Shown: in pieces, positions 49,900-52,249 of the stretch
Layout: each line of letters opens with the position of its first letter
Position numbering within the stretch: position 1 is the stretch's first letter
NCBI RefSeq assembly: GCF_900103085.1
Contig: NZ_FMWR01000009.1
Coordinates: 1 to 64,000, forward strand
Source: Gilliamella mensalis
Lineage (GTDB): Bacteria; Pseudomonadota; Gammaproteobacteria; Enterobacterales; Orbaceae
Direction of reading: 5' to 3'
DNA length: 64,000 bases
Made by a program: the position numbers and the translations under genes
Notes under the pieces: generated by a model
Seen by the model: only the letters and a program-made list of their open reading frames with translations
Database searches by the model: none
What the model was told of the DNA's origin: nothing

Positions 49900-50799
49900 T
49901 TAATTATTTTTTATAATCATTTGCACAGGGTAGTGATCTGAGTATTTATCGGTAAAATCATCTTTTAATACTTTGACGTCCATTACATCGTTTTTAAGTA
50001 TTGGTGAAACATAAATATAATCATAGCGTAATGGTGTTGATGCTTGATCATAAAATACCTTGGTCGGTGCAGTAGCAACAAAATTTTTATTTTTTAATTT
50101 TAAAGCATCAATAAAACCAGCATCAAGAAGGTTTTGTTGCACCGTGTAACTTAGCTGACCATCAACAAGGTTTTCTAAAATTGGGCGTTTTTTTTGTTTT
50201 TCTTTTATATCTTCAAGCAAATTACTTTTGTCATATTCAGTTTTATCGGCTGGTGAGAATGAATTTAAATCCCCTGCGATAATCCATCTTCCTTCAGGAT
50301 CATGGCTATATTTTATTGAGTCAATAATTAGATTTATTTCATCTATTCTTTTTGCTGTCCAAAATGGATTCATATGTGTAACAACAAAGTGATATTTTCC
50401 AATATCTGCATATAATGCACCATGCCACATATTATCAACCACTTTAGTAACATTAATGATTGGATACTTCGAGGTAATCGCAACTGGGAAAAATGCCGCA
50501 TCATCAGGTGATTCTTTTAATAAAACTGCATACTTATGCCCAAAACTGGCTGCAAATTTTTCTAGTTTTTCACGTGTAAAAAAATTCATTTCTTGCCAAG
50601 CAATAATATCCACATCTTGTGCCTTTACCCATTGAATAAACTTTTGTTTTCCTGCTGATTCATCTAACTTCATACCATTGTAAACATTATAGCTAATTAT
50701 CTTTAATTCTTTTATATCGTCAAGCGAAGCAAACGCAGTTGAAGCACTTAAAAGGATACTACTAATTATCGCTGCAAATTTTAATTTACTTTTATTCAT
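49900..50799 (-). CDS. Exported endonuclease/exonuclease/phosphatase-family protein
   Basis: The 299-residue protein has a signal peptide (LLSASTAFA, cleavage near 24) and then the EEP fold. It shows ISYNVYNGM, the metal Glu in IIAWQEMNF, VVTHMNPF, the catalytic AGDLNSF (Asp and Asn) and the final SDHYPVQM with the catalytic His. Members include DNases, sphingomyelinases and inositol-phosphate phosphatases; the substrate is not readable. An exported enzyme of this kind near an autotransporter could act on host or microbial nucleic acids or lipids, but that is conjecture. Confidence 0.85.
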   Translation of the reverse strand: MNKSKLKFAAIISSILLSASTAFASLDDIKELKIISYNVYNGMKLDESAGKQKFIQWVKAQDVDIIAWQEMNFFTREKLEKFAASFGHKYAVLLKESPDDAAFFPVAITSKYPIINVTKVVDNMWHGALYADIGKYHFVVTHMNPFWTAKRIDEINLIIDSIKYSHDPEGRWIIAGDLNSFSPADKTEYDKSNLLEDIKEKQKKRPILENLVDGQLSYTVQQNLLDAGFIDALKLKNKNFVATAPTKVFYDQASTPLRYDYIYVSPILKNDVMDVKVLKDDFTDKYSDHYPVQMIIKNN

Positions 50800-51058: not shown

Positions 51059-51146
51059 CTTCTAAACCACCTATACGGCGTTAAACTATTCGTGCCCAAT
51101 TACCTAAAATTGCCAATTTTGCTAAACCATCTATACGGCGTTGAAT
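51059..51146 (-). CRISPR. Relic type I-F CRISPR unit (two repeats, one 32-nt spacer)
   Basis: On the minus strand the copies at 51059-51086 and 51119-51146 are 28 nt, match at 23 of 28 positions, and start exactly 60 nt apart. This leaves a 32-nt spacer (51087-51118), which is the standard type I-F geometry. The copies share AACGCCGTATAG as core and fit the I-F consensus style (GTTCAC, GCCGTATAGGC, TTAGAAA) at about 20-21 of 28 positions. The first copy in minus-strand order starts ATTCAAC, the second GTTTAAC and ends TTTAGAAG. The stem CGCC/GGTG is still partly paired. No further repeat at either 60-nt step and no cas gene in the window. Degenerate repeats suggest a decayed array; a chance duplicate cannot be excluded. 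Confidence 0.72.
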
Positions 51147-51273
51147 AAGAAATTGATATACTATAAAACTGTTTATTAATCAGAAAAATAAGATTTAAAG
51201 AGTCATTTGTATAGTGTTTTTAATTTGCTGTTTTTATATATAAAATCAAACATATAAATTATGATGCAAACTA

Positions 51274-51328: not shown

Positions 51329-52249
51329 TTATTTAATTTGATCAATATACCCTTTTACAATATTAATGCTTTTTTCAAAGAGTTGCTTTTCGTTGTCGGT
51401 AAAGTCTAGTTTGATCACTTTTTTTATTCCATGCTGATCTAAAATTGCAGGTACCCCAATAGCAACATCTTTATAACCGTATTCGCCATTTAAAATACAA
51501 CTAAGCGCTAATGCACGGTGGCTATTGGTGAATATATGTTGGCAGATTTCGGTAATAGTGCTAGCAATACCATATTCGGTGCAGTGTTTTCGATTCGCGA
51601 TTTCAAAACCCATTTTTCGAGCTTGACTGCCAATTTCATCAAAATCAATTTTGTTTTTTTCTAAGTCATTTAGATTAATACCATAAACCGATGAATGAGA
51701 CCAAACTGGAAACTGTGAATCACCATGTTCGCCCACGATAAAAGCATCAATGCTTTGTGGACCAATATCCATTTTTTCGCCCAATAATCGACGTAATCGC
51801 ACCGTATCAAGCCATACTCCTGTGCCAATCACTCGGTGACGAGGTAAGCCAGATAGTCTCCATACTTGATATGTAATAGCATCACAAGGATTGGTTGCAA
51901 TTAAAAATATGCCTTTAAAACCATTGTTCATCATATTGGGTACAATGCTGGCTATGATTTTAGAGGTTCCAGTAAGCTCTTCTGCTCGACTTTTTTGAGC
52001 AATGCCTGAGGTAACAGTGATAATGGCAATATCAATGTCAGCGCAATCACTCGATTCGCGTAAACTAACCTTTATCATATTTTGCCGATAAGCTGCCGCA
52101 TCTAATAAATCTTGCGCATGCCCATATGCCAATTCTTTATTCAGATCAACCAGTACAATTTCTTCACAAATACCTCGGTTAACCAATGTATAAGCCGTTG
52201 TTGATCCAACATTACCCACACCGATAATCATCACTTTTCGTAATTTCAT
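51329..52249 (-). CDS. L-lactate dehydrogenase / L-2-hydroxyacid dehydrogenase
   Basis: This 306-residue NAD-dependent enzyme has the Rossmann IGVGNVGS (9-16), TNPCDAITY (about 119-127), LDTVRLR (147-153) and the catalytic His175 in GEHGDSQFP. In the substrate-recognition loop the usual lactate dehydrogenase QKPGETR is shortened to QKSRAEEL (85-92). This shorter loop resembles L-2-hydroxyisocaproate dehydrogenases. The enzyme should reduce pyruvate or a branched 2-keto acid and regenerate NAD. GGGGGG precedes the ATG and gives a strong ribosome site. Name as L-LDH is the most economical, but substrate should be tested. Confidence 0.85.
   Translation of the reverse strand: MKLRKVMIIGVGNVGSTTAYTLVNRGICEEIVLVDLNKELAYGHAQDLLDAAAYRQNMIKVSLRESSDCADIDIAIITVTSGIAQKSRAEELTGTSKIIASIVPNMMNNGFKGIFLIATNPCDAITYQVWRLSGLPRHRVIGTGVWLDTVRLRRLLGEKMDIGPQSIDAFIVGEHGDSQFPVWSHSSVYGINLNDLEKNKIDFDEIGSQARKMGFEIANRKHCTEYGIASTITEICQHIFTNSHRALALSCILNGEYGYKDVAIGVPAILDQHGIKKVIKLDFTDNEKQLFEKSINIVKGYIDQIK

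Follow-up and report, generated by a model that had tools for sequence, protein, structure and literature searches.

The array between the EEP-like and LDH genes

The window considered here is a 64,000-nt stretch of Gilliamella mensalis DNA, located on contig C24 of a genome of 2.28 Mb in 44 contigs (G000). Between a gene for an exonuclease III/EEP-like protein and a gene for L-lactate dehydrogenase (LDH), we observed two 28-nt repeats whose starts lie 60 nt apart and which enclose a 32-nt spacer (Table 1). The two copies are identical at 23/28 positions, or at 24/28 if the start is moved to 51058, and the array is read (crRNA sense) on the minus strand, with its leader on the right side. This geometry, first noticed in a sequence-only reading of the window, stood up to two controls, since no second pair of 28-mers with at least 23/28 identities at spacings of 55-65 was found in the 64 kb and a 23/28 pair at these spacings occurred in 0/100 first-order Markov sequences. 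The copies agree with a type I-F consensus at 21/28 and 20/28 positions, as that reading had estimated (20-21). Elsewhere in the window, the RpsF leader RF02893 (8033-8115) is the sole Rfam match at the gathering threshold.

Table 1. Features of the array and its flanking genes, in window coordinates.
Feature	Position	Strand	Sequence in crRNA sense	Similarity
Exonuclease III/EEP-like gene	49900-50799	-		NCBIfam match below curated cut-off
Leader-distal (terminal) repeat	51059-51086	-	GTTTAACGCCGTATAGGTGGTTTAGAAG	25/28 to the repeat of the C42 array
Spacer	51087-51118	-	AATTGGCAATTTTAGGTAATTGGGCACGAATA	30/32 to own grxD, with CC PAM
Leader-proximal repeat	51119-51146	-	ATTCAACGCCGTATAGATGGTTTAGCAA	23/28 to the repeat of the C42 array
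Decayed leader	51147-51241	-		Homologous to the leaders of own arrays C34a, C19 and C25
LDH gene	51329-52249	-		NCBIfam match above cut-off

The repeat family and its cas operon

The repeat pattern was found at 46 sites in the G. mensalis genome, against 0 for a reversed control pattern. Eight arrays of this repeat family were identified (on C15, C19, C25, C29, C34, which carries two, C42 and C24), with a 60-nt period throughout and with 32 nt in 42/42 spacers. On contig C15, one of the arrays adjoins an operon of cas1, cas2/3, cas8f, cas5f, cas7f and cas6f, and each of the six encoded proteins exceeds the cut-off of a type I-F model in NCBIfam (five of these models are equivalogs, that for Cas1f an "exception" model). 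The window element is thus a genuine type I-F array, as had been proposed, and one of several that lie in trans to the cas operon. The proposal that it has no cas genes is correct for the neighbourhood and fails for the genome, because of this complete-looking operon on C15; the suggested loss of the operon is not supported, for the same reason, and the alternative suggestion of an array served, now or formerly, by a distant I-F system agrees with what we found. The drift ascribed to the repeats is also supported. As outcomes that would speak against an array, the sequence-only reading had named a repeat and an I-F system missing from relatives and copies dispersed at other spacings; among 35 genomes of the genus, the repeat is present in 26/35 and cas8f in 21/35, and the seven further arrays of the own genome keep the period constant.

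Repeats of the own arrays are near-uniform within arrays and differ between arrays, with eight dispersed I-F arrays per single cas operon. A type I-E cas8e (Cse1, E = 8.5e-104) was also observed in the same genome (G000:C23:111706-113073, L001), which thus has parts of two type I systems.

Between cas2/3 and cas8f (L063 11040-11462, on G000:C15; see also loci L041-L062) we noticed two degenerate I-F repeats enclosing a spacer of 30 nt. Over its first 11 nt this spacer is identical, next to a CC PAM, to DNA between the mini-CRISPR and cas8f; further on the match is partial. A two-repeat unit is present at 19/22 of the cas8f loci examined. In 12/19 units we found a CC-flanked seed of at least 8 nt within 450 nt, with ≤1/500 shuffled spacers as good; 4/19 have seeds of 5 nt, with the first mismatch at position 6 (13-51/500 shuffles as good), and the remaining 3/19 are unconvincing (seeds of 3, 6 and 1 nt), including one ordinary array and one doubtful repeat pair. 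A mismatch there would be in keeping with type I guides, in which the sixth base is flipped out. The gap unit is regulatory-looking and may be a creR-like autorepression element.

The spacer and its match in grxD

The window spacer matches the grxD gene of its own genome at 30/32 positions (G000:C34:237955-237986). This gene encodes a Grx4-family monothiol glutaredoxin and is present in 35/35 genomes of the genus. The protospacer is preceded by GGCC, thus placing the I-F PAM, CC, at its 5' side, and the seed is perfect over 9 nt. Given the base composition, the chance expectation for such a match in the genome is ~4e-9. This near-full match to the own chromosome, outside the array, marks the spacer as self-targeting. 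Self-targeting spacers beside mutated repeats are already known, and the grxD self-match is the new point here.

In order to polarise the two mismatches, we compared 30 of the 35 grxD loci found. Position 10 of the spacer is T and is A in 30/30 loci; position 22 is G and is C in 29/30 loci and G in one. In the protein, the spacer bases T10 and G22 would give F85I and E81Q, respectively (129-aa ORF numbering). Since grxD is near-invariant at both positions and the spacer bases alter residues, the simplest reading is that the spacer changed, and on parsimony we infer that both mismatches arose there and not in grxD. At position 5, a synonymous site, G is common to the spacer, the own grxD and 1/29 other loci, which points to the own lineage as the source from which the spacer was captured.

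The sequence-only reading had proposed a search for the spacer among phages and plasmids. We discarded such a source, or a viral one: the best E values were 3 among 50,697 phage records and 0.2 among 72,556 plasmid records, neither of them convincing, and IMG/VR gave 0 exact matches when both variable bases were permitted. IMG/VR likewise gave 0 exact matches for three spacers that are leader-proximal in other own arrays, and absence from that collection therefore says little. A grxD-like self-match was not found among the 31/41 other own spacers (those of C29, C34b and C42) that were searched genome-wide with all matches listed (E <= 0.01). Their one partial match, of C34b spacer 6 to C27:110265-110296 (27/32), was set aside as a second self-target, having TC rather than CC beside it. 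The C19 spacer was also searched genome-wide, with 13/16 of its own-genome matches listed, and the nine remaining spacers were compared with ~234 kb of DNA from the own genome, a total that counts overlaps. In one survey, as quoted in a review, self-targeting spacers were put at 0.4% (PMC6990116). Among the literature matches listed, titles and the beginnings of abstracts mention neither Gilliamella type I-F arrays nor a grxD self-spacer, which does not prove their absence.

Repeat damage and leader decay

In the leader-proximal repeat, the positions facing each other in the stem are A-G, C-G, G-T, C-A and C-G, and the stem is broken by a C:A mismatch plus a G:U. Its 5'-handle is altered as well, ending in TTTAGCAA, where the remaining own arrays end in TTTAGAAA. 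The distal repeat retains a foldable stem with one G:U wobble. In the earlier view both stems are weakened and not fully destroyed; the C:A mismatch of the leader-proximal one (GATG) had been missed there. Between other own arrays the stems covary (TGCC/GGCA versus CGCC/GGCG), and paired changes of this kind are what one would expect of a hairpin that matters.

The first repeat is preceded by a leader that is homologous to those of other arrays and is decayed. We compared it with three (C34a, C19 and C25) of the seven other own arrays, finding identities of 76/143, 77/150 and 76/150, respectively (150 alignment columns), whereas the three leaders are identical among themselves at 110/149 to 119/149 positions. 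By eye, the inverted repeat AACCCTTTTTT/AAAAAAGGGTT of the C34a, C19 and C25 leaders is missing from the window leader. The TATAGTATAT adjoining the leader-proximal repeat is retained, and transcription of the array may therefore go on.

The EEP-LDH site in related genomes

At the same EEP-LDH site, the genome G006 (L078), taken here to be that of Gilliamella sp. App4-10, has a three-repeat array with different spacers. A comparison of this locus in relatives had also been proposed earlier: a repeat scan of 19 EEP loci with up to 8 mismatches, several of these loci being cut by contig ends, recovered an array in App4-10 and none in the other 18/19. Two further loci gave one weak repeat match each, with 7 mismatches in L067 and 8 in L076, and we attribute these to chance. 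LDH adjoins the EEP gene in 2/13 loci checked (of the 19), namely in App4-10 and in G003, presumably WF3-4; in the latter, a 291-aa ORF lies between the two genes and no repeat was found there.

One of the two App4-10 spacers matches the asnA gene of its own genome at 28/32 positions, with CC 5' of the match. Its mismatches lie beyond the first 9 positions, and its bases would change two residues. For the other spacer at this site no target was listed in the 35 genomes (E <= 0.001). The repeats that flank the asnA self-spacer are foldable, the first repeat of the array is without the usual stem, and the leader is identical to those of C34a, C19 and C25 at 108-110 of 148-149 positions; by eye, the inverted repeat is likewise missing. 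As the flanking repeats fold and the leader is well kept, repeat damage does not explain tolerance in App4-10, where the 4 mismatches might do so.

Array C34b and the grxD protospacer are 9,953 bp apart, the protospacer being on the leader side of the array. In Pectobacterium I-F, chromosomal spacers are described as coming partly from near array leader ends (PMC5059440), and the grxD spacer may have been captured near an active array. The asnA target of App4-10 lies ~5 kb from an isolated, leftover I-F repeat (L155 12927-12954, G006:C2:121026-121053), on the side away from the leader, which counts against a leader-end source; we regard this as a lead only, given that there are two cases and that the side is wrong in one. 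The neighbour genes of this leftover repeat are those of the 10-repeat C34b in the own genome, indicating that the array has been largely lost in App4-10. Arrays near grxD were observed at varying distances in several species, among them a six-repeat array at ~0.3 kb (L147 4832-5159, G021:C65) and a lone leftover repeat at ~1.7 kb (L148 4005-4032, G007:C41).

A probably disarmed self-targeting array and the alternatives

We consider it probable that the window element is a trans-array that acquired self DNA, became disarmed and is now subject to drift. An array lying in trans to the cas operon would have taken up a 32-nt piece of grxD beside a correct CC PAM, probably later than the split from App4-10. 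With such a spacer, Cas2/3 should be guided to attack the chromosome. Survival of the lineage would then be due to disarming of the array, for which the most plausible cause is the damage to the leader-proximal repeat (a broken Cas6f hairpin and an altered handle), with the spacer mismatches and the decay of the leader as possible helpers in tolerance; after disarming, repeats, spacer and leader would be free to drift. In Pectobacterium, I-F chromosomal targeting is reported to be toxic, and a C18A stem mutation placed in both repeats abolished the toxicity (PMC3630108). The parallel is not exact, because one stem is broken here and both were mutated in that test. We infer that the window array has ceased to produce crRNA or that its crRNA has ceased to be lethal, and the array itself is presumably inert. 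The decay may precede or follow the capture of the grxD piece.

An array that is still fully active, its self-targeting tolerated through an anti-CRISPR, through low Cas expression or because the two mismatches suffice, would agree with the intact look of the cas operon, with the retained stem of the distal repeat and with the creR-like element, which may hold cas expression down. We nevertheless find this unlikely, since the broken leader-proximal stem, the altered handle and the decayed leader point to damage in the array itself. A natural CRISPR interference guide, expressed from the array and lowering grxD expression in the manner of creA, is also conceivable: mismatches 10 and 22 would block Cas2/3 cleavage while Cascade binds inside grxD. 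Degenerate ectopic repeats that produce repressing guides are described for creA (PMC9458426, PMC8501985), and the perfect 9-nt seed with its CC PAM, the retained promoter-like TATAGTATAT and the self-match of the App4-10 array, with its first 9 positions free of mismatches, are in line with such a role. However, the regulatory-looking mini-CRISPR of the own genome, in the cas2/3-cas8f gap, is built differently. Elements of the creA/creR kind are characterised by a PAM-flanked partial (seed) match in a promoter close by, and nothing of this sort was found for the window spacer. Its best CC-flanked seeds are 0-3 nt in the neighbouring intergenic DNA and 4 nt upstream of grxD, the latter equalled by 46/500 shuffles. 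Moreover, the targets differ between the two species and the site array was found in one other genome only, so that we hold a regulatory guide to be distinctly improbable. Still smaller is the probability that we assign to the EEP-LDH site being a specialised ectopic array, in which self-derived guides (grxD; asnA) would have arisen independently in two Gilliamella species and would make I-F Cascade a binding-only repressor of housekeeping genes rather than an agent of immunity.

Type I-F3 transposons are marked by TniQ and lack cas1 and cas2/3 in their operon. The self-match of the guide and the degenerate state of the mini-array are reminiscent of the atypical guides of I-F3, and the sequence-only reading had mentioned a transposon-encoded system of this type. 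We rejected a homing guide of a CRISPR-associated transposon as hardly credible, given 0 TniQ matches in the own genome (2/35 genomes in the genus) and an operon with cas1, cas2/3 and separate cas8f and cas5f; by eye, the ORFs around grxD look housekeeping and no transposon genes were seen among them. The two TniQ-family matches above cut-off (G025:C1:866428, L163, and G009:C20:89252, L164) may belong to Tn7-like elements. As the copies are just two and imperfect, a chance or unrelated dispersed repeat might also be considered. To this we give next to no weight, in view of the Markov control, of the homology of leader and repeat to arrays of the same genome, and of the 60-nt period and 32-nt spacers common to all eight own arrays.

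Comparison with known systems and significance

The window array resembles the type I-F arrays of Pectobacterium and Pseudomonas in its 28-nt repeats, 32-nt spacer, GTATA loop and TTTAGAAA-type end, as well as in the CC PAM 5' of the protospacer and in the presence of a complete cas operon in the genome. It differs from them in having two repeats only, both divergent, with a broken proximal stem and a decayed leader, away from cas. The closest likeness in P. atrosepticum is spacer 6 of CRISPR2, also an I-F self-targeting spacer beside mutated repeats (PMC3630108). There, the cas operon is functional (it is complete-looking in Gilliamella), the target lies in a genomic island and is matched at 100%, and tolerance is attributed to a PAM mutation, the repeat changes being immaterial (PMC3630108). 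In the Gilliamella case, by contrast, the target gene is found throughout the genus and the PAM is intact, and it is the spacer, the stem and the leader that are altered. With the creA/creR mini-CRISPRs (CreTA, cas autorepression) the array shares degenerate ectopic repeats served by the host Cascade. Those elements are described as repressing through partial promoter matches (PMC12737573), whereas the window spacer matches, nearly in full, a coding sequence located on a different contig, and the site is not kept in the genus.

The trans-array, disarmed in our interpretation, shows CRISPR self-targeting as it occurs in nature, in a bee-gut symbiont whose system still looks complete. A base-by-base comparison of the spacer with its target is possible, and a second, different self-match is available from the array that App4-10 carries at this site. 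The case permits testing directly which lesion (stem, handle, spacer mismatch or leader) suffices for tolerating I-F chromosomal targeting.
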